From: Nitrosococcus watsonii C-113
GTDB taxonomy: Bacteria > Pseudomonadota > Gammaproteobacteria > Nitrosococcales > Nitrosococcaceae
Assembly: GCF_000143085.1 (NCBI RefSeq)
Contig: NC_014315.1
Span: forward strand, 3,068,001-3,132,000
Direction: 5' to 3'
DNA: 64,000 nt
Both the position numbers and the translations under genes were made by a program. Positions 4,818 to 51,758 of this stretch are shown here, one piece after another. Numbering within the stretch: position 1 is the stretch's first letter; each line of letters opens with the position of its first letter. The notes beneath the pieces were generated by a model that was not told where the DNA came from, did no database searches, and worked only from the letters and a program-made list of their open reading frames with translations.

Positions 4818-5861
4818 TTAACAGCTTTCGGCTTGCTCCAGCGTCGTGAGTCGCTGCTCCAACTCACGGACCTTTTTGCGCAAATCCGAAAGCCGGTTTA
4901 GCTCCGCCAGCGCCCTGCGGTTTTCCATCATAGGCTGGACGGGGCTACCAGTCATAATGGCCTTGGGTGGCACATCTTTAGCCACCCCGGATTGAGCAGT
5001 TATCACAGCCCCATCACCAATCCGAATATGACCCACTAACCCTACCTGGCCCGCCAGGGTCACCCAATTACCAATTTTGCTACTCCCGGAAATACCCACC
5101 TGGCTAACAATAATGCTGTGCTCGCCGATCTCTACATTATGGCCAACTTGAACCAGGTTATCGATTTTGGTGCCCCGACCGATTCGGGTCGGTCCCAACG
5201 CCCCCCGGTCAATGGCGGTATTGCACTGTACCTCTACATCATCGGCAATCTCCACCCATCCCACTTGAGGCACCTTAAAATAGCCGTGAGGAGGGTCCGG
5301 CGCAAAGCCAAAACCATCGCCGCCAATAATCACGCCAGAGTGAAGAATAACCCGGTGCCCAATCCTCACCCGCTCCAGCAGGGTAACGCGCGGATGGAGC
5401 AAGCAATGCTCACCGAGAATCGTCTTAGCGCCCACATAACAAAAGGGAAACAAGACAGTATGAGCTTTGATAATTACTCCGTCTTCAATCACGCAATAGG
5501 CGCCAATACTACAGTTTTCCGCAATTTGTACGCCTTCCCCCACAATAGCCGTGGGATGTACGCCTGGCGCCGGGCGGTAAGAGCGATTGAACCATCGAGT
5601 TACCACCCGCGCAAAATCACGGTAAGGGTTGTCTGAAATAAGCAGGCAACGGTCCGGGAATTGTTCCCGATGATCGGCCCCTACTATGAAAGCTCCCGCC
5701 TTTGATAACCGAGCCTGGGCCGCATACTTACGATTAGTATAAAAGCTTAAGTCACTCGCCTGGGCCTGATCGAGGGGCGCAATCCCCTGGATGAGGGTGT
5801 CTTCATCGCCCTCAATAGCACAACCCAAAAACTGGGCAATCTCCGAAAGACGAATTTCCAT
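4818..5861 (-). CDS. lpxD: UDP-3-O-acylglucosamine N-acyltransferase LpxD
   Basis: LpxD adds the second hydroxyacyl chain in lipid A synthesis, using acyl-ACP, in the cytoplasm. The 347 residues show the N-terminal uridine-binding domain (to about residue 100), then hexapeptide repeats of a left-handed beta-helix (about 105-300) and a C-terminal helix. The likely catalytic histidine is H241 in DNLVQVGHNVEIG. The usual bamA, skp and fabZ neighbours are missing: an IS200/IS605 element begins only a few bases before the start codon and a CRISPR array ends at the stop. No purine-rich ribosome site is seen before the ATG. It may be a displaced or second copy. Confidence 0.93.
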   Translation of the reverse strand: MEIRLSEIAQFLGCAIEGDEDTLIQGIAPLDQAQASDLSFYTNRKYAAQARLSKAGAFIVGADHREQFPDRCLLISDNPYRDFARVVTRWFNRSYRPAPGVHPTAIVGEGVQIAENCSIGAYCVIEDGVIIKAHTVLFPFCYVGAKTILGEHCLLHPRVTLLERVRIGHRVILHSGVIIGGDGFGFAPDPPHGYFKVPQVGWVEIADDVEVQCNTAIDRGALGPTRIGRGTKIDNLVQVGHNVEIGEHSIIVSQVGISGSSKIGNWVTLAGQVGLVGHIRIGDGAVITAQSGVAKDVPPKAIMTGSPVQPMMENRRALAELNRLSDLRKKVRELEQRLTTLEQAESC

Positions 5862-5882
5862 AAATTAATTGAGCGCGGGGAG

Positions 5883-5900
5883 TGCCTGCTTTAGCTGGCA
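5883..5900 (+). repeat. Left-end subterminal hairpin of the IS200/IS605 element
   Basis: Stem TGCC/GGCA around loop TGCTTTAGCT. The same loop occurs in the right-end hairpin. In this family TnpA binds such hairpins to locate the cleavage sites. Confidence 0.7.
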
Positions 5901-5966
5901 GCGGAAGCGCTCACCTCCTCTAGTTAAGTTATTAAAGTAAGTTTCTAGCGAATCCATAATAGCCAG

Positions 5967-6362
5967 ATGAGTAGATATGCCAAAAATGCCGGGGCGGTTT
6001 TTAGTCTTAAATTGCATCTTGTGTGGTGCCCCAAATATCGCCGCGGGGTTCTTGTGGGTGAGATTGCCGAACGCCTTTGTGCCTTGCTCCACAAGAAGGC
6101 AGATGAGCTGGAAATGACGCTTCATGCTTTGGAAGTTATGCCGGATCATGTCCACCTGTTCGTTGAGTTTGATCCTCGTTGGGGCGTGGCCGAAATCGTT
6201 AACAGGTTCAAGGGCTTCACGAGTAAGGAATTGCGAAAAGAATTCCCTATCCTCCGATCCAGGCTCCCCACGCTTTGGAGCCGAAGCTACTACGCCGTCA
6301 CGGTCGGCCACGTATCCGAAAGCACTGTTCGCGCTTACATCGAAAACCAGAAAGGCAAATAG
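5967..6362 (+). CDS. tnpA: IS200/IS605 Y1 transposase TnpA
   Basis: TnpA is a single-strand DNA transposase of the HUH superfamily. The 131-residue protein has the HUH motif in DHVHLFVEF (about residues 60-68) and the catalytic tyrosine near the end in RAYIENQKG (about 125). The opening SLKLHLVWCPKYRRGVL is typical of IS200. The tnpB start follows the tnpA stop directly (TAG then ATG at 6363), so the two are probably cotranslated. Length and motifs are complete, so the element may still be mobile. Confidence 0.95.
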   Translation: MSRYAKNAGAVFSLKLHLVWCPKYRRGVLVGEIAERLCALLHKKADELEMTLHALEVMPDHVHLFVEFDPRWGVAEIVNRFKGFTSKELRKEFPILRSRLPTLWSRSYYAVTVGHVSESTVRAYIENQKGK

Positions 6363-7484
6363 ATGATCAAGGCATTCAAATACCGTCTTTATCCGAATGC
6401 CCATCAGGCGCGCGAACTGGAGATTGCGCTTGAAACGCACAGGCGGCTTTACAACGCCCGCCTTGAACAGCGAAAGGCGGCTTACGAGTTGGAGAAAAAG
6501 TCGGTCAAATACGCCGAGCAATCTTCGTGGTTCAAGCACGAGCGATCTACGAATCCCTACTTTGCGCGTCTTAACTTCTCCTCCGCTCAGGCCACCATGC
6601 GCCGCCTGGATAAAGCCTTCCAAGCGTTCTTCCGGCGCATTAAGGCAGGTGAAAAGCCCGGTTATCCACGCTTCAAGGCCCGTGGCCGATTCGATAGCTG
6701 GACCTATCCGGCGCACGGTGACGGCGCCCGGCTGCTCCATGACCAATTGCGCTTTCAGCATGTGGGCCTGGTCAAAGTACGCCAGCATCGTCCTGTGGAA
6801 GGCGCGGTCAAAATCGTGCAGGTTAAAAACGAAGCCGGGAGGTGGTTTGTCATCGCCAGTTGCGATATCGGCGATGGGCCAGCCCCCCGCGCCGAGGATA
6901 CCTCGGTCGGCCTGGATGTTGGGTTGGAATATTTTCTGTCCACCGATCAAGGCGAGCGCGTCAATAATCCGCGCTACCAAAAAGAAGCATTGCGCCGATT
7001 GAGGATTGCTGGACGCGCGGTTTCGCGTAAGAGAAAGGGTGGCCGGAACCGAGCTAAAGCGGTTGCTAGATTGCGCGCGATACAGGCGCGCGTAGCCAAC
7101 AAAAGACGGGACCACCACCACAAAGTAGCCCGCGATTTGGTGAGTCGATACGCCTTCATCGCGGCGGAGAGCCTGACTGTGCGCAATAGGGTCAGGAACC
7201 GTCGGTTGAGCCGGTCGATTTCGGATGCTGGCTGGCGCCAGTTTCTGAACATACTCCGCGCCAAGGCTGAAAGCGCCGGGTCGGTGTTGGTTGAAGTTCC
7301 TCCGCAGGGCATCTCGCAAGCGTGCTCCGGCTGCGGCGCGGTGGTACGTAAAGCGCTGTCCGTGCGTACGCATAAATGCCCGGCATGCAGCTTGCGCCTG
7401 CAAAGAGATGTCAACGCGGCCAGAAATATCTTGGCCCGTGGCCAGGCCCGGTTGGAGTCTGTGCGGCTTAACGTGGCGCAATAG
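6363..7484 (+). CDS. tnpB: RNA-guided nuclease TnpB of the IS200/IS605 element
   Basis: TnpB proteins are RNA-guided DNA nucleases, ancestral to Cas12, that cut the empty donor site and favour retention of the element. The 373-residue protein has an N-terminal helix-turn-helix (KAFKYRLYPNAHQARELE), RuvC-I aspartate in VGLDVGLEYF (about residue 188), RuvC-II glutamate in FIAAESLTVRN (about 270), a zinc finger with CSGCG and CPAC (about 325-345) and RuvC-III aspartate in RDVNAARNI (about 352). All three catalytic residues are present. It is directly downstream of tnpA. A guide RNA is expected from the right end of the element, overlapping the tnpB 3' end. Confidence 0.94.
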   Translation: MIKAFKYRLYPNAHQARELEIALETHRRLYNARLEQRKAAYELEKKSVKYAEQSSWFKHERSTNPYFARLNFSSAQATMRRLDKAFQAFFRRIKAGEKPGYPRFKARGRFDSWTYPAHGDGARLLHDQLRFQHVGLVKVRQHRPVEGAVKIVQVKNEAGRWFVIASCDIGDGPAPRAEDTSVGLDVGLEYFLSTDQGERVNNPRYQKEALRRLRIAGRAVSRKRKGGRNRAKAVARLRAIQARVANKRRDHHHKVARDLVSRYAFIAAESLTVRNRVRNRRLSRSISDAGWRQFLNILRAKAESAGSVLVEVPPQGISQACSGCGAVVRKALSVRTHKCPACSLRLQRDVNAARNILARGQARLESVRLNVAQ

Positions 7485-7530
7485 CGCGTGCGTGCCGCAA
7501 GAAGCCGTCTGCTTTAGCTGACGGTGCATC
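7420..7530 (+). ncRNA. Predicted TnpB guide RNA (reRNA/omegaRNA) region
   Basis: In this family the guide RNA scaffold comes from the tnpB 3' end and the element's right end, and the guide is the flanking DNA just beyond it. Here that region ends with the hairpin CCGTC-TGCTTTAGCT-GACGG at 7505-7524. The 5' limit is not visible; the call rests on family knowledge plus the hairpin. Confidence 0.45.
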
Positions 7531-7586
7531 ACACCTTCTTCCCGCTCGATTGTCTTATTTTTTTGTTTTATAAGCACGCGCTATCT

Positions 7587-8006
7587 TTAAAAAGGCTTTA
7601 CTACCACTAGAATCACCGCACCAATCAGGATTAACACCGGAAACTCATTAAACCAGCGATAATACACATGACTGTGGCGGTTACGTTCCTCGCGAAAGGC
7701 GATCAACAGCCAGCCGCAATAAAGATGATAGGCAATCAAAAGCAGAACCAAGGAAAGTTTGACATGGAGCCACCCCGCCTCCATCCAAGCCGGCGTTAAA
7801 TAAATCAGCCACACACCTAATCCCACCGCCAAAATAGCACTAGGGTGCATAATACCGCGATAAAGCTTGCGTTCCATGACTTTGAAACGCTCCCGCCCTG
7901 GCTTATCCTGGCACTGGGCGTGATAGACGAATAGCCGTGGCAAATAAAACAGGCCAGCGAACCAGGTCACCACAAAGATAATATGGAAGGCTTTGATCCA
8001 AAGCAT
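7587..8006 (-). CDS. hemJ: Protoporphyrinogen IX oxidase HemJ
   Basis: HemJ is a membrane protein that oxidises protoporphyrinogen IX in haem synthesis in many proteobacteria lacking HemG and HemY. The 139 residues form four membrane segments. The opening MLWIKAFHIIFVVTWFAGLFYLPRLFVYH carries the conserved histidines (H8 and H29 region), and LYRGIMHPSAI near residue 50 is also typical. It stands alone between the IS element downstream and a 347-base gap upstream. Confidence 0.9.
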   Translation of the reverse strand: MLWIKAFHIIFVVTWFAGLFYLPRLFVYHAQCQDKPGRERFKVMERKLYRGIMHPSAILAVGLGVWLIYLTPAWMEAGWLHVKLSLVLLLIAYHLYCGWLLIAFREERNRHSHVYYRWFNEFPVLILIGAVILVVVKPF

Positions 8007-8353
8007 GCTATTTTGATTACTCCAAGCTAAAAGTATTATTTATGAGCCCTAGCGCCTGCTAGATTAGCAAATCTTTAGCACAGCTCCTACTGTCATCAAC
8101 TCTCAGAATCCGCTAAAAGCTGCAGCCAAGATTGTTTTTTATCTGCTATTTGTAACTACTGGGCGCCAAAAACGGCTAAGATAAGGGAAACAAAGCTAAC
8201 CGATTGACCGAGCGTCTTGCTGGCATAGAAGGAATACAGGGATGTATGACGACCCCCTAGCGAGCGTGCGAAACGAAGTGGCGCATCGAGCGCGACCTGC
8301 CTGCAGCAGGCAGGGGGCAGCATTAAAATTTTGGCGGCGGCGATTTTCCGAAG
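8007..8353. other. Intergenic stretch, probably including the left part of a decayed tnpB element
   Basis: No gene is supported here. The half nearer 8354 is GC-rich and contains a hairpin, CCTGCC-TGCAGCA-GGCAGG, near 8297-8315, just before the start of the deleted tnpB. It may be the left end of that element. Two short open frames on the minus strand show no family features and were left out. Confidence 0.4.
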
Positions 8354-9034
8354 ATGAAAGCCTATCAATTAAGACTCTACCCCACACTCAAACAGCGGCG
8401 GCAGCTAGAGAAAGAATTTAGCGCCTGCCGGTATGTGTGGAATTGGGCGTTAGATAGACGCACCAGGGCCTACAAGGAAAAAGGAGAGTCCCTGAACGCC
8501 ATTGCGCTTTCTCGGGAACTGACGGCGCTCAAATTAGCCAAAGCGGCCAGAGGTGGCCACAACCGTCGTAAGCAAAGGAGCCGCGTAGCTCGACTCCACC
8601 AAAGAATAGCCAGCAAGAGGGCGAACTTTCTGCACGGGCTGAGTACTTCGATCGTACGCGAAAACCAAGCCATAGCGATTGAGGACCTGAACGTGCGTGG
8701 CATGATGGCCAACGGAAAGCTAGCTCGATCAGTTGGGGACTGCGGTTGGTACGAGCTACGACGGCAGCTCACCTACAAAGCGAAGTGGTACGGACGGCAG
8801 TTGAATGTCGTCCCGAGGTTTCAGCGTACCACGGGCGTTTGTCCCGATTGCGGGACGGTAGGGGAAAAGCTGCCGCTGAGGGTGCGGTCCTGGACATGCG
8901 GGCATTGTGGAAGCGCGCATGACCGGGATATTGCCGCCGCCCGGGTGATTGATTTAATGGGCAATACCGCGAGGAGCGTGGGAATAGATGCCTGTGGACT
9001 GGCACACAAACCGGAGGAGGCTGTCACTCCATGA
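8354..9034 (+). pseudogene. tnpB: TnpB with a large internal in-frame deletion
   Basis: The 226-residue frame starts like a TnpB (MKAYQLRLYPTLKQRRQLE) up to about residue 60. It then jumps to the region before RuvC-II (HNRRKQRSRVARLHQRIASKR), skipping the rest of the N-terminal half and the RuvC-I aspartate. It keeps the RuvC-II glutamate (IAIEDLNVRGM), a zinc finger (CPDCG, CGHCG) and the RuvC-III aspartate (DRDIAAARVI). Normal TnpB is about 370-400 residues. Without RuvC-I it should not cut DNA. There is no tnpA beside it. It is probably a dead relic, although the frame has stayed open. Confidence 0.85.
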
Positions 9035-9154
9035 CGAACTACCCAAGGGCCGGATCGAAGCAGGAAAAGCGCAGTGAGCGAGAGCGCAGGGATGCGCTCA
9101 TGGGGCGATTAGCCCCGGTCGCGAACGTTAGCCGCCAACTCCAATTACAGAGAA
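9035..9154 (+). ncRNA. Possible guide-RNA scaffold or right end of the deleted tnpB element
   Basis: Two clean hairpins follow the tnpB stop: GAGCGC-AGGGAT-GCGCTC at 9082-9099 and GGGGC-GATTA-GCCCC at 9102-9116. Consecutive hairpins after tnpB fit the right-end RNA of these elements. The boundary with the next gene near 9140 is unclear. Confidence 0.4.
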
Positions 9155-12148
9155 ATGGGGGGTAAACCCTTAACAAGAGCACAGGGAATCCGTTTTCTGG
9201 CAGTCGGCCTAGCTTATTTTCTGACTGCCTTGCTCGAAATTACGCTGACCAGCCAAGGCGATAATATCGCTGTGCTTTGGCCACCAAACGCCATCCTCAT
9301 CGGCGTATTATTGCGGGCTAAGTCCTGCTATCGGCCAGTTTACTTCGGAATCTGCCTGCTAGCTGATCTAGTGGCAAGCAAAGTGATGGGCGAGGCGACC
9401 AGCATCGCACTAGGGTTTATGCTGGCCAATGGTTTAGCGGTTGCCGTGACAGTCGCTTTTATGCAGCGGCTAATACCCCTGCCGGTTACACTCCACGAAC
9501 CCTGGCAATTACTGGCGTTGGTAGGTGCGGGCCTGCTTGGCACTGCTGTGGGCGCAGCTTTCATTGGCGTGACCTATGGTACATTTTACTGGGCCGCGTG
9601 GCCGACTTGGTGGCTTGCCGATGTGGTCAGTATCGCTCTCATCACACCGGTCCTGCTAAGCGCCTCCTGGCCGGTGGCGAAAACGCTACTGACGAAGCGC
9701 ACTGCTGAAACGGCAGCGGCCTTGCTGATCGCTGCGGCGGTTACAGTCGGCGTGTTCCACAGTTCATCTTACGCCCTCGTGTACTTAACGGCCCCCGTGA
9801 TGCTCTGGTTCAGCTTCCGTCTCGGGCTATTTGCGTGTGGGGTGCTGGGACTCGTTATCACTATCATTGTGGTTGCGCTCACGCTGCAAGGCGTGGGTCC
9901 CATCGCCAGTCAAGTCGGCGGCATTTCCCTAACCACCATTCAAACCCTGCAAATTTATCTAAGTCTAGTCATCCTGCCAGCGCTGATGATCAGCATCGAG
10001 CGTGAAAACCGGCTCCGTGCGGAGGCAGAGATAATACAAAGTCAGGCGCGCTATCGCTCTCTTTACCATGATACCCCAGCCATGCTGCACTCAATTGATC
10101 GTCAAGGACGGCTACTCAGTGTCAGCGCTTACTGGCTCACCATCATGGGCTATGAACGCGATGAGGTTATTGGGCGGCGCTCCACGGATTTTATGACCGA
10201 TGCCTCGCGCCGCTATGCGATCGAGGTTGTACTACCGGCATTTATGCGTAGCGGCGTTTGCCGCGACATTCCTTACCAAATGGTAAAGAAAAATGGCGAA
10301 GTGTTTGATGTCCTGCTATCGGCCACAGCCGAGCACAACCCTGACGGCAGCGTGGCTCACTCGCTCACAGTCATGCACGATGTCACTGCCCGTAAACGAG
10401 CCGAGACCGCGCTGGTTGCCGAGAAAGAGCGGGCTCAGGTGACCCTGGAATCCATCGGTGACGGGGTGATTACCACTGATGCTAATGGTCGTATCAACTA
10501 CCTTAATCCAATTGCCGAGGCGATGACCGGCTGGTTGCTGGCGGCTGCCCAGGACAAAGCATTACAGGAGGTATTTCAGATTATCAACGAGTCCACCTGC
10601 GAGCCAGCAGCTGATCCTCTCGCCCCTTGCTTGACCGGAAACCCCATCGTGAGATCGACCCACTCTACCGTACTTATCAATCGCCACGGCACTGAATATT
10701 CAATTGAAATCTCCGCTGCCCCTATTCGCGACAGCAACCGCCAGGTGTTGGGCGCGGTGCTGGTATTTCACGATGTTAGCGAGCAGCGCCGGTTGCAGCG
10801 GGAGATTGCCCATCAGGCGCAACATGATGCCCTCACGGGGTTAGTGAATCGCCGCGAGTTTGAGCAGCGTTTGCAAAGAGTGATCGAGGCCGCTCAGACG
10901 CAAAACAGCGAGCACGCCCTATGCTATCTTGACCTCGACCAGTTTAAAGTCGTCAATGACACCTGCGGGCATACCGCGGGTGATTCCCTGCTACAACAAC
11001 TAGCGACGCTGTTCGAGAAAAATATCCGCCGACACGATACGCTGGCGCGGCTGGGAGGGGATGAATTTGGGCTGCTATTAGAACACTGTCCGTTGGACAG
11101 CGCGCTACGAATAGTCAATACCTTACGACAAACGGTTGAGGATTTCCGTTTTTGCTGGAATGGGCAATATTTTCGGATCGGCGTCAGTATTGGCCTGGTG
11201 CCCATCAACAGTGCTAATTCAAGCGTCGCCAGTGTCTTACGAGCGGCTGACAGCGCCTGTTACGTTGCTAAGGACAGCGGCCGTAATCGAATTCACATTT
11301 ACCGCGAGCACGATGTAGATCTAGCCCGCCGCCACGGTGAAATGCAATGGGTGGCGCGTATTCAGCAGGCCTTGGAAGAGGATCGTTTTCAGTTGTATGC
11401 GCAACCGATAGTGCCGTTTAAGAAGCTGCCATCCGGTGGCATACACTGCGAATTGTTGCTACGGCTAGTAGAAAACGACGGTAAAATATCGCCGCCAGGC
11501 GCATTTATGCCTGCCGCCGAACGCTATAACCTGGCCGTTGCGATTGACCGCTGGGTCGTCAGCCAGGCATTACGCTGGCTGGCCACCCATCCGGCGCTGC
11601 TTGACCGGATCATGTTATGCACTATAAATCTGTCGGGACGCTCTATCGGTGATCGCTTTTTCCACGCTTACGTGCTGCGGCAATTTGACGATACCGGCCT
11701 GTCGGCTAAAAAAATCTGCTTCGAGATTACGGAAACAGCCGCCGTGGCTAATCTTGCTGACGCCACCCGATTCATGCAGGCGCTGAAAAAACGCGGCTGT
11801 CGTTTCTCTCTCGATGATTTTGGCAGTGGTCTGTCTTCATTTGCCTACCTTAAGGCCCTACCCGTTGATTTTCTCAAAATTGATGGCCTGTTTGTTAAAG
11901 ACATTGTCCATGATCCCATTGATCTGGCTATGGTTCGTTCAATCAATGAAATCGGCCACCTGTTAGGGAAAAAAACCGTTGCTGAATACGTCGAAAACAA
12001 CGCTATCTTGGATAAACTACGCAACCTCGGTATAGATTATGGACAAGGCTATGGTCTTGGTCGTCCACAGCCCTTGTCCGCACTGCTTAAAATAAACCCT
12101 AGGTCGGCTAATTCCATAAAAACGGGAGCGGATGCCCATTTCATATAA
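9155..12148 (+). CDS. MASE1-PAS-PAS-GGDEF-EAL membrane c-di-GMP enzyme
   Basis: This 997-residue protein probably makes and/or breaks cyclic di-GMP in response to a membrane signal. An N-terminal MASE1 region (about 10-285) has eight or so membrane segments and the typical VLWPPNAI motif. Two PAS domains follow (about 300-420 and 430-550). The GGDEF domain has an intact RLGGDEF at about 634. The EAL domain has ELLLR instead of EALLR at about 766 but keeps NLSGRS, EITE, DDFGSG and KIDG, so phosphodiesterase activity is plausible. It stands alone, convergent with radA. The effect of the ELL change is unknown. Confidence 0.9.
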   Translation: MGGKPLTRAQGIRFLAVGLAYFLTALLEITLTSQGDNIAVLWPPNAILIGVLLRAKSCYRPVYFGICLLADLVASKVMGEATSIALGFMLANGLAVAVTVAFMQRLIPLPVTLHEPWQLLALVGAGLLGTAVGAAFIGVTYGTFYWAAWPTWWLADVVSIALITPVLLSASWPVAKTLLTKRTAETAAALLIAAAVTVGVFHSSSYALVYLTAPVMLWFSFRLGLFACGVLGLVITIIVVALTLQGVGPIASQVGGISLTTIQTLQIYLSLVILPALMISIERENRLRAEAEIIQSQARYRSLYHDTPAMLHSIDRQGRLLSVSAYWLTIMGYERDEVIGRRSTDFMTDASRRYAIEVVLPAFMRSGVCRDIPYQMVKKNGEVFDVLLSATAEHNPDGSVAHSLTVMHDVTARKRAETALVAEKERAQVTLESIGDGVITTDANGRINYLNPIAEAMTGWLLAAAQDKALQEVFQIINESTCEPAADPLAPCLTGNPIVRSTHSTVLINRHGTEYSIEISAAPIRDSNRQVLGAVLVFHDVSEQRRLQREIAHQAQHDALTGLVNRREFEQRLQRVIEAAQTQNSEHALCYLDLDQFKVVNDTCGHTAGDSLLQQLATLFEKNIRRHDTLARLGGDEFGLLLEHCPLDSALRIVNTLRQTVEDFRFCWNGQYFRIGVSIGLVPINSANSSVASVLRAADSACYVAKDSGRNRIHIYREHDVDLARRHGEMQWVARIQQALEEDRFQLYAQPIVPFKKLPSGGIHCELLLRLVENDGKISPPGAFMPAAERYNLAVAIDRWVVSQALRWLATHPALLDRIMLCTINLSGRSIGDRFFHAYVLRQFDDTGLSAKKICFEITETAAVANLADATRFMQALKKRGCRFSLDDFGSGLSSFAYLKALPVDFLKIDGLFVKDIVHDPIDLAMVRSINEIGHLLGKKTVAEYVENNAILDKLRNLGIDYGQGYGLGRPQPLSALLKINPRSANSIKTGADAHFI

Positions 12149-12201
12149 TGCCGAACCGACTCATCCACGAGCCTGCCATTTACCCGTTCAAAACAAGAAG
12201 T

Positions 12202-13572
12202 TTATTCCTTAAGGGCCTCCAGCACTTCAGCGAGACGGGTCACCGGAACAATAGCAATATGCTCGATTGGCCGTCTCGGAGTATTTCCTCGAGGCAGAAT
12301 CGCCTTTTTAAAACCATGTTTAGCGGCAGCAGCCAGGCGTTCTTCCCCCCCCGGCACTGGACGGATTTCTCCTGTCAACCCTACTTCTCCAAACAGCACT
12401 AATTCCTGATCTAACGGGCGATCCCGCAAGCTGGAAACAATGGCAGCGAGAACCGCCAGATCAGCGCCCGTTTCGTTTACCCGCACTCCCCCTACTACAT
12501 TTATAAAAACATCCTGGGCCCCTGGCATGACTGCGCCATGGCGGTGAAGAATGGCGAGCAACATGGCTAACCGGTTGGGCTCCAGGCCCACCGTAACCCG
12601 CCGGGGATTGGCAAGATGGCTGTCATCCACCAGGGCCTGAACTTCTACCAGCAAAGGACGGCTCCCTTCCCGGATTACGGTGACGGCGCTCCCGGGAACC
12701 GCTTCTTTCCCTCGAGACAAAAAGATAGCAGAAGGATTGGTGACACCCCGTAGTCCTTGCTCGGTCATGGCAAAAACCCCCAGCTCATTCACCGCGCCAA
12801 AGCGATTCTTAGCTGCCCGCAACACCCGTAGCCGCTCGCCCCCATCGCCCTCGAAGTAAAGCACCGTATCCACCATATGTTCCAGGACTCGGGGGCCAGC
12901 CAAGGCGCCCTCCTTAGTCACGTGGCCCACAAGAATGACCCCGGTCCCGCTTTGCTTGGCAAAACGCAGCAATTGCCCGGCGCTTTCCCGCACTTGAGTC
13001 ACCGTGCCTGGCGCTGATTGCAGCTGTTCCGTATATAAAGTCTGGATAGAGTCCACCACCATCACCTGGGGCCGTTCTTGCCGGGCAACAGCTAAGGCCC
13101 GTTCCACCAAGGTGTCCGCTAATAGCCGCACCGGCGCTGTTCCCAAACCCAGACGCTGGGCCCTGAGACTGATTTGCGCCAGGGATTCCTCTCCGGTTAA
13201 ATACAACACTTTACCTTCCTGGAGCGCCCCCATGTTAGCCAGGGCCTGCAATAATAGAGTGGATTTACCAATCCCCGGCGCACCGCCAATCAGCACCACC
13301 GAACCTGTTACTAACCCTCCGCCTAAGACCCGATCCAATTCGGATAGACCCGTTGACAAGCGCACCTCACCGGTTACCTGCACCTCCGCCAAGGGCTGCA
13401 CCGTGCTCAATGCACCGGCGTAGTGGGCATAACGTCCAGTCCGTTTCGGCAGCTCGACGCTTAGCTGCTCCTCCAGGCTATTCCAGGCGCCGCAGCCAGC
13501 ACATTGGCCGGCCCAACGAACTGATTCAGCGCCGCACTGAGTGCATTGGTAAACAGTCTTAGGTTTTCCCAC
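12202..13572 (-). CDS. radA: DNA repair protein RadA (Sms)
   Basis: RadA is a RecA-like helicase that processes recombination intermediates. It shows an N-terminal zinc finger (CTQCG...CAGCG), Walker A GGAPGIGKST at about residue 85, the KNRFG signature (AAKNRFGAVNE) and a C-terminal Lon-like domain. The frame can be read from 13617, but that would overlap alr. The GTG at 13572 is better: it gives the usual family N-terminus (VGKPKTVYQCTQCG), starts five bases after the alr stop, and has TATGGAGTAAG as ribosome site. It ends the dnaB-alr-radA group. Confidence 0.93.
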   Translation of the reverse strand: MGKPKTVYQCTQCGAESVRWAGQCAGCGAWNSLEEQLSVELPKRTGRYAHYAGALSTVQPLAEVQVTGEVRLSTGLSELDRVLGGGLVTGSVVLIGGAPGIGKSTLLLQALANMGALQEGKVLYLTGEESLAQISLRAQRLGLGTAPVRLLADTLVERALAVARQERPQVMVVDSIQTLYTEQLQSAPGTVTQVRESAGQLLRFAKQSGTGVILVGHVTKEGALAGPRVLEHMVDTVLYFEGDGGERLRVLRAAKNRFGAVNELGVFAMTEQGLRGVTNPSAIFLSRGKEAVPGSAVTVIREGSRPLLVEVQALVDDSHLANPRRVTVGLEPNRLAMLLAILHRHGAVMPGAQDVFINVVGGVRVNETGADLAVLAAIVSSLRDRPLDQELVLFGEVGLTGEIRPVPGGEERLAAAAKHGFKKAILPRGNTPRRPIEHIAIVPVTRLAEVLEALKE

Positions 13573-43231: not shown

Positions 43232-43507
43232 TCAAGGAAAAACCTTATAAATATCTTTCCGATGCGCAATACGCTGGCAAAGGATCGTGTGAGCTTGCTT
43301 ATTCACTGTAATCCCGATCCGATAAGGACCCACGCGAATTTTGTACTTATTTGGATAGCCCATCATTTTTTCAAGGTATCCCCATTCGAAAGGGTGGGTG
43401 GACTTCAGTGCTTGAAAAACAATTCTCTCTACCCGTTGTTGAACAGGGTTTGGTAAGGAGGCGAGTTCTTTTAAGAAACGCTTGGTGTATTCAACCCTCC
43501 ACATCAT
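43232..43507 (-). CDS. RelE/ParE-superfamily toxin
   Basis: A 91-residue toxin-type protein: MWRVEYTKRFLKELASLPNP, then WGYLEKMMGYPNKYKIRVGPYRIGITVN and a C-terminal RIAHRKDIYKVF. The basic R-V-G-x-YRI and H-R-K-D-I-Y segments are the RelE signature (mRNA cleavage on the ribosome). The start overlaps the end of the antitoxin gene by 17 bases. RelE and ParE cannot be told apart with certainty; the C-terminal tail favours RelE. Confidence 0.88.
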   Translation of the reverse strand: MMWRVEYTKRFLKELASLPNPVQQRVERIVFQALKSTHPFEWGYLEKMMGYPNKYKIRVGPYRIGITVNKQAHTILCQRIAHRKDIYKVFP

Positions 43508-43703
43508 TGGCCTTTAATAATTCATAATATTCCCTAGCCGCATCCCCCGAGAGTCGTTCATCGTGTTCCGTTTCATCCATTAGCTTCGCTAATCCAAAAT
43601 TCTCCATGATTTGCTCGATCCGCTGAAACTCATCAAAGGGAATTTGAACGGCCACCGGTTGCTGATTTTCATCTACCAAGATTTTTTTGTGGATTTCGAG
43701 CAT
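43491..43703 (-). CDS. Antitoxin of the RelE/ParE-type pair
   Basis: A 70-residue protein with an N-terminal beta strand and helix (ILVDENQQPVAVQIPFDEFQRIEQIMENFG) and an acidic C-terminus (DETEHDERLSGDAAREYYELLK), a layout like Phd/RelB-type antitoxins. It is first in the pair and overlaps the toxin start. GGAGA lies before the ATG. The pair is complete. Confidence 0.83.
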   Translation of the reverse strand: MLEIHKKILVDENQQPVAVQIPFDEFQRIEQIMENFGLAKLMDETEHDERLSGDAAREYYELLKANDVEG

Positions 43704-45179: not shown

Positions 45180-45629
45180 CTATTCCACGTATCCCATCAT
45201 CCCTGCGACGTTCGTCGCCTTGATGTATTGGGCCGACTCTTCCGCATCTCTGAAAATTTCCTCAAAATGGCGTTCTCCGCACTTGATTTTCGCCCCTTCA
45301 AGGTGGCGCAAATCGTCCCACCATATGCTACCTTTTGTTTCGACGACGAAGTAGAGCTTTTCCTCACCACCATCTTCCACAACAACAGCCCAATCGGGGT
45401 TATAGGAACCGAGCGGCGTTGGCACCTTAAACCATGGGGGCAGCTTGGCGTAGACCTTCACCTGTTCGTTCTTTTCCAAGTCCTCAGCGAATGACTTCTC
45501 TACGCTACCCGAATCATAGACGACATGGGTATAAACAGACTTTTGCACTTCCAGTGTATTCTTCAGATAGCCTTTCAGCTCTTCCTGCTCAAAAAGCGCC
45601 TGGGCATAGAAGTGATCGCCTCGGCGCAA
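45180..45629 (-). CDS. Type III restriction endonuclease Res, detached C-terminal nuclease part
   Basis: This frame (149 codons from a TTG) encodes the C-terminal end of a type III Res subunit: GDHFYAQALFEQEELKGYLKN, VYTHVVYDSGSVEKSFAEDL, and the PD-(D/E)xK nuclease core SYNPDWAVVV...YFVVETKG (ExK). It overlaps the end of the main res frame by 55 bases in another frame. In intact Res proteins the two parts are joined by a segment of roughly 20 residues around VDGIKY that is absent here. It is therefore likely a fragment after an out-of-frame deletion, unless expressed on its own. Confidence 0.85.
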   Translation of the reverse strand: MRRGDHFYAQALFEQEELKGYLKNTLEVQKSVYTHVVYDSGSVEKSFAEDLEKNEQVKVYAKLPPWFKVPTPLGSYNPDWAVVVEDGGEEKLYFVVETKGSIWWDDLRHLEGAKIKCGERHFEEIFRDAEESAQYIKATNVAGMMGYVE

Positions 45630-48172
45630 TAGTCGATGAATTGCTGCGGGTTGCGCAGGAAGTCTTGTAGACTGCGGCTCTGCCTGAGTATCTGGACAAT
45701 GCTCTTTCGGGTGAGCTGGGTCTTGTCCTGCAAGTCGGTAATGATGTCGGGCAATTCGATATCATTCTCGTGGATTGTCGTGTAGCCGGATGCACTGGTT
45801 TCCTGAACCCCTACGCCACCTTTGCCGATTGCGATATCGGCCTTTCGGAATTGAGCACGAGTCTTGGTAATCGGCGGACAGTTCCTGATTGCAACAGCAC
45901 AATCGTTCAGGAGTTTGAGGTTGTCGAACTCTACGCGGTAAGTCGTCTTGTACTTGATCCGTTCCCAAAGTAGGCGGAAGTCATCGGACTCAAGAACCGC
46001 TTCCCGCGTTCGAATTATCTTCCGGTCATCGGCGTTCTTGATATCCAGCTTGCCTGCCAGCTTGCGCAGAACCCCCTGAATGTCCGAAGCAATAATGTCC
46101 GCCTGTTCCTCTCCGTGATCCTTGACAAGCTCCTGCTTGATGCCTTCCGGCAGTTCAAAGTTACCGTCTTTCAATACTGCGCGGAGACTGTCCTGCACCT
46201 TGCCCTTGGCATCCACAAATTGCTGATCCTTGAGAAACTGCCAAATCTTCTCTGACTGCTCTACACCCAAGGGCGCAACCTCACCTTGATCGTTAAGGGT
46301 TTGGATGGTTGCGAATTGGTGCGGCTCAACAATGCCAAAGCGAATACCCGTGTCCTGCTCGATCTCTTTTTGCAGGTTCTCGGCAAACTTCTCGTAGTTC
46401 TCCGTCGCAATCACAGTCAGCGTATTGACGTCGTTACCGCGAAGTCTTTCACCGCTCTGGTTGACGCAGAGACGCAGACCACGGCCAAGTGTCTGGCGGC
46501 GTTCCCTCTCGCTGCCCATGTCACGAAGCGTGCAAATCTGGAATACGTTCGGATTGTCCCAACCTTCCTTCAGGGCAGAGTGAGAGAAGATGAACTTCAG
46601 CTTGGTATCGAAGCTCAGCAGCTTCTCCTTCTCCTTCTCCTTCTCCTTCATAATCAGATTGTACGCTCGCTCGGCATTGTCGCGGTTTGCCTGATTATTC
46701 TCGGCGGTCTCTACGGATCGACCCTTCTTGTCGATGGAGAAATAGCCGTTGTGAACTTCGTCCGCCTCAGCCTCCAGATCAATCTCCTTGAACAGGCTTT
46801 GGTACTCCGCTGACTTGGCCAGCTTACGGTATTCTTCCTCAAACATCCGAGCGTACTTGCCCTTCACTGCGTTACCGTCTTCGTCGTACTGGCGGTAGTG
46901 CTCGACGCTATCAATAAAGAACAGACTCAGCACCTTGATCGGCTTCTTGTTCGCAGCGAACATCAGCTCCTTATCGAAGTGCTCTTTGATTGTGCGCCGG
47001 ATCATCAAACGCTTGATCTGGTCGGAATCAACACCACCAATGGCATCGCCCGGCCTCAGTAGTTGATCGAACCCGTCACCTTTCACTTCGATGGATTCGT
47101 TGTCTTTGCCGCAGGTAATGGTGCCGATCTGCATATTCTCGTAGATGGATCGACCTGTGATTTGCTCCAGATCGTCGCCGTCCTCTACAGTTAGGAACTC
47201 TCGCCGGACATTCTTTCCACGCTGTACGTCCACTTCGACCCTGGCCGTGATTGATCCTTTCCGACTATGGGTAGAGTCCAACCGGATATAGGGCTTGTTG
47301 TGGCCACTGTCGATCTGGAGCGAGGCCACCTCAATCTGCTTAACCAGGCCGCGCTCATAAGCATCTACGGCATCCAAACGGAATGTCATGTGATGCTTGT
47401 CAACATGGGTAGCGGAATAACGCAGGGTACACAGCGGATTCATCGCTGTGAGCGCTGCTTTCCCAGCCCCTTTCAAGCCGCCGTCAACGCTTTGCGGCTC
47501 ATCGACGATAATGATCGGGTTTGTGGCGCGAACGAGGTCAATCGGCTTCTCACCGCCTGTGTTCTCGTTCTCCTTATAGAGATTGTTGACATCCTTCTTG
47601 TTGATCGCGCCGACCGTCGTGACCATGATCTGGATATTGCTACTGGTCGCAAAGTTACGAACCTGTCCGAGCTTTGAAGAATCGTAGAGAAAGTATTCGT
47701 AGCCCTTGGCCTTTGGGTACAAGCCCTCAAAATGCTCCTGCGTGATTTGTAGCGTTTTGTATGTACCTTCTTTGATTGCAACGGACGGCACGACAATTAC
47801 AAATTTGGTGAAACCGTAGTTCTTGTTTAACTCGAAGATCGTGCGCAAATACACATACGTTTTGCCCGTTCCGGTCTCCATTTCAACGGTAAAGTCACCA
47901 CTGGCCAGCTTCTTGGTAGGTCGCAGGCCATTCTGGAGCTGCACCTTGCGCAAGTTCTCTTCAATTTCCTCATCCACCAACACCAGCCTGTTGCCGATAC
48001 CGAGTGAGGTATCAACTTGCCCTGGACCGGTTTCAATCCAATCTACCGTTACATTCTTAGGCGATATCACAGTGAATTCGGAACGGGAGATTTCCTGCCC
48101 CTTAAACAGACTAACAACCGAGTCTATCGCGGCTTTTTGGTAATCTAGATCGTCTTCGAAATGGAGCTTCAT
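45575..48172 (-). CDS. res: Type III restriction endonuclease Res, helicase part (nuclease domain split off)
   Basis: Type III Res is an SF2 helicase/nuclease that works with Mod. The 865 codons hold Walker A in METGTGKTYVYL (about 97), motif II IVDEPQSV, motif III-like SATHVD, and HSALKEGWDNPNVFQICTLRD with RRQTLGRGLRL (motifs V and VI). The frame ends at 45575 with an abnormal tail (TSMPRRFLSRKS) where the family continues into the nuclease domain, which is found in the overlapping frame at 45180-45629. The start ATG overlaps the stop of the abi gene (ATGA). Helicase motifs look intact. Confidence 0.92.
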   Translation of the reverse strand: MKLHFEDDLDYQKAAIDSVVSLFKGQEISRSEFTVISPKNVTVDWIETGPGQVDTSLGIGNRLVLVDEEIEENLRKVQLQNGLRPTKKLASGDFTVEMETGTGKTYVYLRTIFELNKNYGFTKFVIVVPSVAIKEGTYKTLQITQEHFEGLYPKAKGYEYFLYDSSKLGQVRNFATSSNIQIMVTTVGAINKKDVNNLYKENENTGGEKPIDLVRATNPIIIVDEPQSVDGGLKGAGKAALTAMNPLCTLRYSATHVDKHHMTFRLDAVDAYERGLVKQIEVASLQIDSGHNKPYIRLDSTHSRKGSITARVEVDVQRGKNVRREFLTVEDGDDLEQITGRSIYENMQIGTITCGKDNESIEVKGDGFDQLLRPGDAIGGVDSDQIKRLMIRRTIKEHFDKELMFAANKKPIKVLSLFFIDSVEHYRQYDEDGNAVKGKYARMFEEEYRKLAKSAEYQSLFKEIDLEAEADEVHNGYFSIDKKGRSVETAENNQANRDNAERAYNLIMKEKEKEKEKLLSFDTKLKFIFSHSALKEGWDNPNVFQICTLRDMGSERERRQTLGRGLRLCVNQSGERLRGNDVNTLTVIATENYEKFAENLQKEIEQDTGIRFGIVEPHQFATIQTLNDQGEVAPLGVEQSEKIWQFLKDQQFVDAKGKVQDSLRAVLKDGNFELPEGIKQELVKDHGEEQADIIASDIQGVLRKLAGKLDIKNADDRKIIRTREAVLESDDFRLLWERIKYKTTYRVEFDNLKLLNDCAVAIRNCPPITKTRAQFRKADIAIGKGGVGVQETSASGYTTIHENDIELPDIITDLQDKTQLTRKSIVQILRQSRSLQDFLRNPQQFIDYCAEAITSMPRRFLSRKS

Positions 48173-49104
48173 GGAGCTTCATCCTGCTTGTCGAACTGAT
48201 CGCCCCATACTGGGTGCTGTTTCCAGTTGTCAGGCATTCCCATTGCCGCACACCATCGGGCATTGAGGGCAATAGGTACAATTAATTCATTACATTGCCG
48301 AGTCCAGCTATGGGTATTATTTATTGTTTTAAGCAGGAACTTCAGCATTAACAGGATATAAAAAACCCTGTCATTTCTAGGGGTGATTGGTGGATTCCAC
48401 TCGGGTGCTTTTGACTTCTCTGGGCGAATAGAAAGCTCTCTATTCCATAAACGGCTATGGTGAGCACACACATTGCGGATATACGTCAATGTATGGAGCC
48501 AGTCTCCCAGGCGCTTATGGTGAATGCCTAGCTGATCGGAGATCACTTTTTTGTCCTTGTGATTGAGTCCTCTGTAGCAAAGCGAAAGACTCCCTAGGGT
48601 CATGATTTCGGTCGTCATCCAAATGGGCAAAGTTGGGAATTCGGTATATTTATTCTTATAGTGAGTAATAAACGCATCGTTGGAACGCTGCGCCTCCTTC
48701 TCCAGCTTTGCCAACCACTCTTCATGCCTAAACCCAGTATGAAAATTCCCAGGATCAGCGTGGCCAAATGCTCCATAGGTATGGCCGATATGATATGTGA
48801 TTAATGTTCGTAGATGGACTTCTATACGCTCAATGGCAGCCATAACCAGCAATCGAAGTTCCCGATCAAATTCATACAGCGCCACTACATCTTCAAAACG
48901 TGTACCTTCGATAAATTCACTGCTGATATTTCCCCGCCCATCCCTCACGCGAAATGGATGCCAATAGGCGCTTAGGCGGTAATAGCTAATAGCGCTTAGC
49001 TGCGATAACGCATACGCTGAGTTATTAATGACCAGCCCTCGTTCTCGCATCAACGCCAGCTGATCGTTAAAGGTAAGGGCAGGTTTCTGGTAGGTCTCAG
49101 GCAT
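48169..49104 (-). CDS. Abi-family (AbiD/AbiF-like, HEPN) protein embedded in the type III R-M operon
   Basis: Abi_2-type proteins are abortive-infection factors, believed to be HEPN RNases that stop cell growth on phage attack. The 311-residue protein begins with MPETYQKPALTFNDQLALMR and has SYYRLSAYWHPF and FDRELRLLVMAAIERIEV typical of AbiD/F. The HEPN motif R-x4-H is seen in TYIRNVCAHHSRLWNR (about residue 225). The start at 49104 has GGAGGT five bases upstream; the frame extends to 49152. It ends by overlapping the res start, so it is coupled to res, and mod lies 225 bases upstream on the same strand. Confidence 0.87.
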   Translation of the reverse strand: MPETYQKPALTFNDQLALMRERGLVINNSAYALSQLSAISYYRLSAYWHPFRVRDGRGNISSEFIEGTRFEDVVALYEFDRELRLLVMAAIERIEVHLRTLITYHIGHTYGAFGHADPGNFHTGFRHEEWLAKLEKEAQRSNDAFITHYKNKYTEFPTLPIWMTTEIMTLGSLSLCYRGLNHKDKKVISDQLGIHHKRLGDWLHTLTYIRNVCAHHSRLWNRELSIRPEKSKAPEWNPPITPRNDRVFYILLMLKFLLKTINNTHSWTRQCNELIVPIALNARWCAAMGMPDNWKQHPVWGDQFDKQDEAP

Positions 49105-49329
49105 TGAGCACCTCCAGATGGCGGGCATAAAAAAGCCACCAAGGTTGCGCATTGTTAAGAGGCGTGGCGGCTGTGTTAAGTAAATTATAGACGAAACCAG
49201 CAGACAAGTCCAGATAACCGGTCGGCTGACGATCTACCCTTATGATTTTTAAAAAATTCTTAAAAACCATTCAAAACTGCATCGATTCAGAGAGCACCGC
49301 TACTTTCGGAGCATTCTGTGGCCGCATGC

Positions 49330-51270
49330 TTACAAGCTGCGCACATGGTTTATGCCATTCTGCTCCAGAATGGCGGCCATGTTGGTTTTTGAAACATCAT
49401 CGCTAAAGGCACTGTCTCGGAAGAAAATGTGGGTATCCGAACTAGGCGCAAGCTCCCGATGCCATTCGACGATGCCTTGACTGATCACTTCGACTTGATC
49501 TTTGGTGATCGACTCATCAAGACAAGCAAACAGGACGCCGTAGCCGATGCTGTAGATTGTCTTGCCATTTAGGTCTCGGGATTCAATAGGAACAGCGAGA
49601 TCAACACCTCGTTTTAGTAACAATTCGTAGAGGACATCCTGTTCAGTTCGATCTTGAACGAGGAGTTCCTGATGCGTAAACAAGCTTTCCTCGATGTCGG
49701 AATGGTCAGGATTCCATACATTGATATTAGATTTTCCGAGTTTGAAAAACTTCACTCCAAGATCACCAGAAAATTCAGGGGAGTTATCTCTGATACTTTT
49801 TGCCGCTAAACGTATTCGCTCGATGGCAAGCTTAGAAATAGCTCTAAATCCCGCCTTAAACGCTTCACTACCTTCATCTATTAGCTCAGGCAGCTGTACG
49901 CTAATGAATCGGCGGCTTCCATTATCTTTACTGTTCTCAGCCATCATGGCATGAGCAGAACTACCAGATCCCGAAAAAAAATCTAGCACAATCATATCTT
50001 TGTCTTGACATATGGCGATCGCATCGCCAATAACATCGAGCGATTTTGGAGACTGGAAGAGTTTAGATTTTGTACCGAATAGGTCATTAAAAGCTTTTTG
50101 TCCTTTCTCGGTATGATGCCTTTTTTCTGACCAAATCGACTTAAGCTGTTTAGTGGGGAGTTCGCCATCATCAGAAGCATAGCCTTTCCTATATATTTTC
50201 CATCTTGAACTAACTTTTTTGGCAACAAGCTCAGAAAGCTGCTTTCTAGCCTTCTCCTTCCCCCATGTCCAGCACCCCTCAAACCCATCATCCCAAACTG
50301 GCAGCACGGCGGTGGAGCTTCTGAAGTCTTCTAGCTCAATGCAGCCTTCCTCATCAACATAGAACGGATAGTAAAGATTCGGCCTGTTGAACTTCCCGAA
50401 CTCTCGATGTGTGTTACGAAGTTCGAGCTCGCGGTACACACCGCGTTCATCCTGAAATGGATAATCCTTCGCAATTTCATCTTTGGATTTGGGAGCGTTA
50501 AGCTGGCCTTTATCGAGTACGCTTTTCGTATAAATTAGTAAGTATTCATGACAGGATGCCAAATACTTATCTTGAGATCGCCCCTTTGGGTTACAAAGTA
50601 CAATAACTTTTCCAGCGAAACACTCTTCACCGAAAATATCATTACACAACAACTTAAGGTTAGCGATTTCATTATCATCTATAGAAATGAAAATAACGCC
50701 ATCATGTGTCAGCAAATTTCTGGCCAGTTTCAGTCTCGGCAGCATCATATTCAGCCAATTTGTATGCTTGCGACCAGTTGACTCGGAGTTAGAGGAAAGC
50801 TTCATTCCCTCATCATCAACTTGCCCTGTGTACTTGAGGTAGGTATCCAGATTTTCCTGAAACTTATCGGGATAAATAAATTCTTTTCCGGTGTTATACG
50901 GCGGGTCGATATAGATCATCTTGACCTTGTTGGCGTAGCTCTTCTGAAGCAGCTTGAGGACTTCCAGATTGTCGCCCTCAATAAACAGATTCTTGGTCGT
51001 ATCCCAATCTACACTTTCTTCTGGACAAGGCAGCAACGTCCCTGTGGATGGTGTAAGTGCGATCTGGCGAGCCTTTTTCTTACCATGCCAATTGAGGCCA
51101 TACTTTTCTTCACCTTCGTCCAACACCTTGGCATCATCGAGCAGTTGACGAAGCACATCAAAATTGACACCGCTCTCTCTGAAAGCCTCGGGGAACAGCT
51201 CTTTTAATCGTTCAATATTCTCTGAAACGATATCGGCGCTTTCGCCTTCTTCTGGTTGTATTTTTTTCAT
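49330..51270 (-). CDS. mod: Type III DNA modification methyltransferase Mod
   Basis: Mod methylates adenine N6 in its target and provides sequence recognition for Res. The 646-residue beta-class enzyme has the catalytic DPPYNTG motif (YIDPPYNTGKEFIYPD, about 120) before the SAM-binding LDFFSGSGSSAHAMM (about 425), with the target-recognition region between. The ATG at 51270 (MKKIQPEEGESADIV) is preferred to the upstream start at 51306, which lies in a repeat. No simple-sequence repeat that would cause phase variation was seen. Confidence 0.93.
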   Translation of the reverse strand: MKKIQPEEGESADIVSENIERLKELFPEAFRESGVNFDVLRQLLDDAKVLDEGEEKYGLNWHGKKKARQIALTPSTGTLLPCPEESVDWDTTKNLFIEGDNLEVLKLLQKSYANKVKMIYIDPPYNTGKEFIYPDKFQENLDTYLKYTGQVDDEGMKLSSNSESTGRKHTNWLNMMLPRLKLARNLLTHDGVIFISIDDNEIANLKLLCNDIFGEECFAGKVIVLCNPKGRSQDKYLASCHEYLLIYTKSVLDKGQLNAPKSKDEIAKDYPFQDERGVYRELELRNTHREFGKFNRPNLYYPFYVDEEGCIELEDFRSSTAVLPVWDDGFEGCWTWGKEKARKQLSELVAKKVSSRWKIYRKGYASDDGELPTKQLKSIWSEKRHHTEKGQKAFNDLFGTKSKLFQSPKSLDVIGDAIAICQDKDMIVLDFFSGSGSSAHAMMAENSKDNGSRRFISVQLPELIDEGSEAFKAGFRAISKLAIERIRLAAKSIRDNSPEFSGDLGVKFFKLGKSNINVWNPDHSDIEESLFTHQELLVQDRTEQDVLYELLLKRGVDLAVPIESRDLNGKTIYSIGYGVLFACLDESITKDQVEVISQGIVEWHRELAPSSDTHIFFRDSAFSDDVSKTNMAAILEQNGINHVRSL

Positions 51271-51283
51271 ATTTTTCTCTTTA

Positions 51284-51353
51284 ACCACGGAACACACGGA
51301 ATACACTGAAAAAACATGTTATCCCTTCCGTGTTATCTGTGTATTCCGTGGTT
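51284..51353. repeat. Inverted copies of the GxxExxY-associated repeat
   Basis: One copy (51284-51309, AACCACGGAACACACGGA...) and an opposite copy (51326-51353, ...GTGTATTCCGTGGTT) form an imperfect palindrome between mod and the GxxExxY gene. The second copy ends at the stop codon of that gene. A third copy lies at 51726-51754. Confidence 0.85.
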
Positions 51354-51758
51354 TACATAACAATTCGTTCAATTTCAACTTTGGGATAGTGCCCAAAATT
51401 TACCAGCAACCCTAAACGCATGCCAGTTGCTTTTAGGTAATTATGAAGCTGCGCCCTGTGCTCGCCAGCGATGCATTTCACCGCTTTAATTTCAACAATA
51501 ATTTTCCCATAGCAAACAAAATCCGGTTGATAGGCTTGATCCAGCGCTTGACCTTTATATTGAATCTGTAAATTGGCCTGAGCAACGAAAGGGACCGCTT
51601 TCAACCTGAATTCTCTGCCCAAACATTCCTGATACACCGCTTCCAGAAAGCCGCAGCCCATTTCCCTATAGACTTCGAATATAGCACCACGGATAGTATA
51701 ACTTTCTTTCTCGTAAATAATTTCTTTCCGTGTCTTCAGTGTAATTCCGTGGTTCCAT
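51353..51758 (-). pseudogene. GxxExxY-family protein gene, probably frameshifted near its start
   Basis: The family is named for GxxExxY and has a PD-(D/E)xK-like core of unknown function. Here G-C-G-FLEAVY, YQPDFVCYGKIIVEIKAV and the HRAQLHNYLKATGMRLGLLVNFG end are all clear from 51661 on. Upstream codons in the same frame also match (YEKESYTIRGAIFEVYREM), but no ATG opens that frame. The proper ATG at 51758, with AAGGAAGG before it and EPRNYTEDTE after it, is one base out of frame; an extra A in the run near 51722-51725 would explain this. Translation from a rarer start codon is the alternative. Confidence 0.75.
51726..51754. repeat. GxxExxY-associated repeat, upstream copy
   Basis: TTCCGTGTCTTCAGTGTAAT and CCGTGGTT, the same orientation as the copy at 51326-51353. 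It covers the first codons of the GxxExxY gene, so the gene is bracketed by two direct copies. Confidence 0.8.

Follow-up and report, generated by a model that had tools for sequence, protein, structure and literature searches.

An AbiF-family toxin gene and a predicted abiF RNA between mod and res of a type III restriction-modification operon in Nitrosococcus watsonii C-113

Gene content of the locus

A 64,000-nucleotide (nt) stretch of the Nitrosococcus watsonii C-113 genome (GCF_000143085.1, NC_014315.1, 3,068,001-3,132,000; hereafter the window, in whose own numbering its features are given) carries a type III restriction-modification (R-M) operon in which a gene of the AbiF toxin family, headed by an RNA of the abiF family, lies between the methyltransferase gene mod and the restriction gene res (Table 1). 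This order on the minus strand, proposed in an earlier note on the same DNA, was confirmed by the open reading frames (ORFs) together with Pfam and PADLOC profiles. The R-x4-H motif named in that note can be read directly, and the ATGA overlap of the Abi stop (48171-48169) with the res ATG (48172-48170) was likewise found, with 4 nt in common. As the overlap lies inside a tandem duplication, the Abi stop codon falls in the repeat of the res start, and the last 11 Abi residues, those after HPVW, are without counterpart in loci L002 and L003 (both end HPLWK).

Mod matches MTase_III PDLC03634 (E 6e-202) at full length, over profile positions 5-620 of 621, and Res matches REase_III PDLC03647 with an E-value of 0. 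The Abi protein was assigned by Pfam Abi_2 PF07751 (E 1.6e-60; 205 bits against a curated cut-off of 25.6) and by the PADLOC AbiD profile (E 6.4e-79), and its residues 5-300 match chain 8vz6_A (E 2.1e-37), with RNVCAHH aligned to RNSCCHH of 8vz6. The start given in the ORF list, ATG 49152, is inside the abiF RNA, and the likely start of AbiF is ATG 49104, which stands behind GGAGG.

The helicase part and the endonuclease domain of res are in different frames, and no single frame joins the helicase to a PD-(D/E)xK nuclease. Compared with the res of G748, a genome of the same genus (open over 1010 amino acids; 92% identity over residues 1-861), the window is short of 61 nt, and the deletion is bounded by two short CGAT copies; a one-base sequencing error is ruled out by its size. 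Since this out-of-frame deletion separates the nuclease domain, restriction is probably dead in this strain, and AbiF would therefore probably be the sole effector still working, beside an apparently intact methyltransferase.

Table 1. Features of the mod-abiF-res region of the window
Feature	Position	Strand	Remarks
mod, type III DNA methyltransferase, 646 amino acids (aa)	49330..51270	-	full-length open frame; DPPY...FSGSGSS
predicted sigma-70-like promoter, TGGACT-17-TATAAT	49184..49212	-	10/12 matches; presumed transcription start ~49178
abiF RNA (RF03085) hairpin, then six U	49134..49171	-	Rfam match; antitoxin RNA and terminator-like structure in one (predicted)
abiF toxin gene, Abi_2 HEPN family, 311 aa	48169..49104	-	R-x4-H = RNVCAHH
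10-base-pair tandem duplication TGAAGCTCCA at Abi stop / res start	48162..48181	-	Abi stop codon in second copy
res, helicase part of type III restriction subunit, 865 aa to stop past frame shift	45575..48172	-	
res endonuclease domain (RE_endonuc, PF19778), out of frame	45180..45629	-	61-nt deletion
stretch from mod stop to res start without counterpart in congener G748	48173..49329	-	100-nt spacer in G748

The abiF RNA

The RNA upstream of the Abi gene matches RF03085 with 41.9 bits against the Rfam gathering score of 37, and its end is about 30 nt before ATG 49104. Type III toxin-antitoxin systems are marked by RNA repeats, a terminator between RNA and toxin, and neutralization of the protein by the RNA; here the motif is single, with no RNA repeats, and its hairpin, with a predicted fold of -13.3 kcal/mol (z -2.19; 5/200 shuffles as good), passes straight into a six-U tract before the gene. 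A similar layout of -10-like box, AACA, hairpin, U run and gene is found before many of the sampled AbiF genes; the hairpin passed a pattern test in 48 of 74 AbiF loci, and a -10-like box was seen in 36 of those 48. Pattern-based finding mis-set several hairpins, and a covariance model was used in its place.

Covariation among 43 loci supports a conserved stem. Its ten pairs were formed in 99.3% of cells, a share biased upward because the rows were first chosen by a stem search, against 36-50% in slid controls; double changes occurred in seven of the ten pairs, amounting to 48 cells against 8.2 in shuffles. The covariance model built from these 43 loci (match threshold E up to 0.1) detected the RNA in 57/75 AbiF loci, namely 43/43 of the training set and 14/32 of the others, and all 55 matches checked by script, out of 57, were on the AbiF strand and directly upstream. 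The window RNA, itself in the training set, scored 60.8 bits (E 2.3e-13), and among the 42 sources of res loci the model matched the window only.

Ten abiF RNA matches, three of them below the gathering score, fall on contigs without an Abi_2 match (G231:C17, G072:C2, G114:C279, G114:C146, G073:C20, G225:C61, G169:C1, G263:C4, G182:C8, G307:C8); these are possibly orphan antitoxin RNAs, or RNAs whose AbiF genes were lost at contig ends.

AbiF in front of restriction subunits

Seventy-four AbiF loci, including the window and L002, were inspected for type I or III R-M genes within 6 kb by local hidden Markov models (HMMs). Such a gene was found in 30, which is a raw count, and these HMM labels can catch helicases outside R-M systems, as is probably the case for the gene upstream in L048; the tag of L138 denotes a short fragment 3.9 kb away. 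The abiF RNA is present in 22/29 of the R-M-linked loci other than the window. The gene of the restriction (R) subunit is the next one downstream in ten loci (window, L002, L043, L045, L126, L129, L130, L137, L142 and L148), all ten of which have the RNA; in L129 a 237-nt gap separates AbiF from the R gene.

In a quick AbiF tree, with Shimodaira-Hasegawa-like approximate likelihood ratio test (SH-aLRT) support only and long branches for L060, L146 and L156, the window AbiF groups with L002 and L043 (SH-aLRT 96) inside a 12-row clade (SH-aLRT 99). This clade consists of the window, seven rows in which AbiF precedes the R gene of a type I system (L002, L043, L126, L130, L137, L142, L148), and four rows without detected R-M genes. 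Like the window, the seven have the abiF RNA (7/7) and an R start overlapping or near AbiF; they differ in having HsdR instead of Res, and hsdM and hsdS upstream instead of mod. The label of AbiF before a type I R gene is clustered on the tree (6 changes against a shuffled mean of 8.7; 2/500 shuffles as low), whereas other R-M labels are unclustered (type I in other arrangements: 15 changes, shuffled mean 15.5).

For six of the seven type I members, the R gene probably starts within the end of AbiF, the two overlapping as ATGA in L137, L142 and L148; L126 has a 35-nt gap instead. Their HsdR identities range from 44 to 89% (hsdR of L130 is split, and its values are from the first piece), and the retention of the overlap across such diverged HsdR proteins makes the joint look old in type I. 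The window shows this toxin lineage in front of an R subunit of another kind. The best plasmid AbiF among the matches listed (the best 40 of 417 matching records) is on a Legionella fallonii plasmid with 49% identity; no R-M gene was seen within 7 kb of it, in a gene table that is incomplete by its own description.

Recurrence of the arrangement and the mod-res gap

Relatives of this res (E <= 1e-20) and Abi_2 genes were counted in three samples, each including the genome of the window. The class sample of 369 genomes has 26 with a res relative and 37 with Abi_2, the phylum sample of 398 genomes has 44 and 50, and the set of 29 relatives has 6 and 3, respectively. Across all three, Abi_2 was co-located with this res family only in the window, within a search that scored, for each genome, some of the candidates from a first look, and in assemblies whose contig breaks can hide neighbors. 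The neighborhood search proposed in the earlier note accordingly yielded no recurrence with this res family beyond the window. A recurrent, fixed mod-abi-res composite is not supported: these samples gave no second co-located case with this res family, and the G748 site described below has no AbiF.

AbiF does occur in other type III-like operons, with another Mod/Res subfamily and another order. L192, from the same taxonomic order, reads helicase-abiF-mod-res over 5078-13525, with the abiF RNA before abiF (helicase and res were named by eye); L048 has abiF-mod-res, and in L036 and L133 abiF stands before a type III mod.

The gap between mod and res was then considered in 40 res relatives, 20 from each of the class and phylum samples, chosen by rank and upstream room; two were without mod upstream. 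Mod and res are adjacent in only 13 of the remaining 38 loci (gaps up to 154 nt; L174 and L176 after re-reading of the start), and the earlier statement that the two genes are usually adjacent in type III systems does not hold for this res family. In 24/38 the gap is at least 600 nt and holds other genes. The gap of L161 measures 249 nt and includes an 89-aa frame that has no Pfam match but looks, by eye, like the beginning of RhuM. By Pfam, the cargo comprises RhuM (L103, L107, L110, L112, L162, L164, L165 and L167, with a piece in L166), Fic (L100, L162, L163, L171, L178), AAA_21 (L101; with DUF4276 in L104), GmrSD (L099), SLFN_AlbA_2 with HATPase_c_4 (L108), HATPase_c_4 (L114), HAD with RelB-YafQ (L117), nucleotidyltransferase-HEPN (MNT-HEPN) pairs (L166 and L170, the latter also with UPF0175), ORF6N (L118) and Bro-N (L175); cargo without a Pfam name was found in L116 and L173 and as one frame each in L162 and L163. 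No Pfam match to Abi_2 was present in the cargo of these 24 loci. Most of the cargo named by Pfam falls in families with a link to defence, to toxins or to toxin-antitoxin pairs. In 13/24 loci, an overlap of exactly 4 nt joins the last cargo gene to res; overlaps of this length are common in operons. Many rows are related, so that they do not count as independent events. The mod-res gap appears to be an interchangeable cargo slot in the relatives of this res.

The congener G748 and the possible origin of the AbiF stretch

G748 has the same flanks, with pieces that match between 39.9 and 56.8 kb of the window. Its mod and res are 100 nt apart with no AbiF between them, and its AbiF-like genes lie elsewhere in the genome (one of them, G748:C2:2044152-2045093, has an in-frame TAG). 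Given the AbiF-free site, either the window lineage gained AbiF or G748 lost it. At the DNA level, the best kin of this stretch is the type I relative L002, with 75.5% identity over 49204-48205. The homologous part starts between the two promoter boxes (-35 and -10) and stops at the C-terminus of AbiF, and so takes in the -10 box, the RNA and the toxin gene and leaves the -35 box and the 3' tail outside. The ends of mod have about 85-95% DNA identity to G748, and the middle (~49640-50740) drops to 0.35-0.67, which looks like an exchange of the recognition domain.

Some neighboring features were also observed. A PDDEXK_3 gene (51353-51661) is directly upstream of mod, and G748 has a similar ORF before its mod. 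The window also has a short palindrome (ACCACGGAA...TTCCGTGGT) before mod, at 51281-51358, and an element like it makes up the mod-res spacer of G748 (L187 8634-8715); this is possibly a mobile intergenic repeat. A type II toxin-antitoxin pair, RelB-like and ParE-like, is located at 43232-43703.

Discussion

AbiF_Cd, encoded in the Clostridioides difficile prophage phi027, is toxic, and the RNA RCd22 binds it and neutralizes it in cis and trans; abiF mRNA rises 17-fold without RCd22, and a terminator was suggested to limit read-through (PMC12373285). The window shares with this system an Abi_2 protein, an RF03085 RNA upstream, a promoter before the RNA and a terminator before the gene, the latter two as predictions, and differs in genomic setting, since the C. 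difficile gene belongs to a prophage lysis module and not to a type III R-M operon. RCd22, with its two motifs, has a likeness in the tandem abiF RNA matches before the AbiF genes of L142 (8561-8624, 8804-8879), L055 (9826-9892, 9673-9732) and L036 (8714-8774, 8831-8897). The complex of PbAbiF with AbiFr RNA has been solved as PDB 8VZ6 (review PMC12737573), and PbAbiF is the homolog to which the window protein aligns, including R-x4-H.

Taken together, it is rather likely that AbiF and its RNA form a self-contained toxin and antitoxin-RNA unit, a portable RNA-restrained abortive-infection cargo located between mod and res. By analogy with the studied AbiF systems, a promoter of its own would supply the RNA in excess and transcription would stop at the RNA's hairpin, with occasional read-through of the hairpin giving toxin mRNA, and the RNA would bind and block AbiF. 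A phage that stops or swamps host transcription would let the short RNA run out, upon which freed AbiF dimers would cut RNA and growth would stop before phage release. Such a unit should act with or without restriction. Since AbiF is joined to the res start, read-through transcripts would also carry res. The earlier note had proposed a backup tied to restriction or to the loss of Mod; this tie is not needed, because the AbiF gene has an apparent promoter, RNA antitoxin and terminator of its own, and res is broken.

Several points weigh against this interpretation. The promoter, the RNA of ~50 nt and its termination are predictions, promoter-like sites in the region number 4 against 6.1 in shuffles and hence show no excess, and the abiF hairpin is missing from the results of a generic terminator scan confined to loops of 3-8. 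RCd22 has two motifs and a separate terminator, unlike the single motif of the window with its hairpin running straight into the U tract. The model found no RNA in 18/75 AbiF loci, nor in 7/29 of the R-M-linked loci besides the window. Of these 18, three (L136, L150 and L158) are truncated by the end of their contig, and 14 make up exactly one 14-row AbiF/AbiD clade of the tree (L040, L044, L053, L056, L121, L134, L138, L141, L144-L147, L151, L152), whose members are either RNA-free toxins or carriers of a diverged RNA. The HEPN ribonuclease activity and toxicity of the window AbiF are putative, and its activation by phage and protective effect are presumed by analogy; for AbiF_Cd, the portions of PMC12373285 drawn upon hold no phage-protection result. 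Moreover, abiF and hsdR are inherited together in the type I clade, which suggests that AbiF is more than a passenger, and the site in G748 could reflect either a loss there or a gain in the window. Within the RNA-less clade, AbiF is a few nt behind hsdS in L040 and L053, and L044 and L147 show a similar hairpin.

That the module is a neutral or selfish passenger, which settled in a permissive slot, persists by addiction and has no functional link to R-M, is unlikely. The empty site in G748, the unrelated cargo in the same slot of relatives and the occurrence of mod-abi-res with this res family in the window alone among the genomes sampled are as this view would predict. The presumed toxin and defence character of most named cargo speaks against it, as do the one AbiF clade that keeps its place before hsdR and the exact 4-nt overlaps with res, which suggest selection on the joint, common as such overlaps are. 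The earlier note would have taken adjacent mod and res genes in relatives, with an Abi gene only here, as a sign of chance insertion, and G748 comes close to that picture.

Precedents for a guard come from type I loci, in which PrrC, RloC, DarTG2 and GmrSD-like genes have been described (PMC12707154, PMC2610378, PMC12255303, PMC11411939). A PrrC-like role, the strongest version of the idea in the earlier note, with AbiF held by or sensing the R-M complex and freed by phage anti-restriction or loss of Mod, would accord with these precedents, with the R-M linkage of 30/74 AbiF loci (the R gene being next downstream in 10) and with the overlap of R start and abiF end kept in 6/7 type I clade members despite the divergence of HsdR. 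It is nevertheless distinctly improbable here: AbiF has its own abiF RNA and the anatomy suggests masking by RNA instead, as in the prophage, where AbiF_Cd is neutralized by its RNA; in 44/74 loci the 6-kb search picked up no R-M gene (in some of them because the contig ends); R-M linkage in general is unclustered on the AbiF tree; and res is broken in the window. An assembly error, or a decayed locus without any working part, is scarcely credible, as the 61-nt out-of-frame deletion that could be held to indicate it has a short CGAT copy on either side and does not resemble a single-base read error. The genome is assembled in 3 contigs, mod and abi are full-length open frames, the Abi protein matches a solved AbiF over residues 5-300, and the RNA keeps its pairing.

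A further proposition, which we consider quite unlikely, is that the hairpin is a shared switch: transcription would terminate after the modification gene and ahead of the restriction gene, and the R subunit (Res in the window before it broke, HsdR in the type I clade) would be produced, along with AbiF, only when read-through occurs. It was drawn from the R starts fused to the AbiF end and from the promoter scan of the region, which listed no promoter-like site on the minus strand within abiF. The promoter of EcoP1 res, on the other side, lies within mod (PMC3874151), which indicates that R promoters can hide in upstream genes. If the shared switch were true, modification first, restriction later and arrest on RNA loss would all be set by one antitoxin RNA.

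The composite system put forward in the earlier note stands in part: the operon does contain an embedded HEPN gene that is joined to the gene of the R subunit, and the linkage recurs, while a fixed mod-Abi-res unit was not borne out. Embedding as such has precedents. Abi2/AbiF/AbiD were listed as embedded in R-M operons in 2013 (PMC3710099), and 8/72 RloC map to type I or III loci (PMC2610378). The place between hsdS and hsdR has been termed a potential recombination hotspot for defence systems (PMC12255303). PrrC in ecoprrI and DarTG2, TgvAB and RloF between hsdS and hsdR are, like AbiF here, toxin or defence genes inside an operon, several of them next to hsdR; the window differs in its type III mod and res and in a toxin that stands beside an RNA antitoxin. 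An extra helicase 5' of mod is known from some type III systems (PMC8259958), and L192 can be seen as AbiF added to such an arrangement, similar to the window in having AbiF inside a type III-like operon. In the open-licence literature searched, none of mod-abiF-res, an abiF RNA before a restriction gene, and the mod-res gap as a cargo slot was described. The kinds of part are all known, and the type III mod-res cargo slot with AbiF and its RNA in it is apparently new.

Conclusion

Overall, to judge from the locus of Nitrosococcus watsonii C-113, an Abi gene may survive the loss of the restriction gene it seems to serve. The analysis would add the mod-res gap of type III systems to the defence slot already known between hsdS and hsdR, and place one toxin lineage, with its antitoxin-type RNA, before the restriction subunits of two R-M types, from which follows the testable idea that a restriction subunit may be under the control of an antitoxin RNA.

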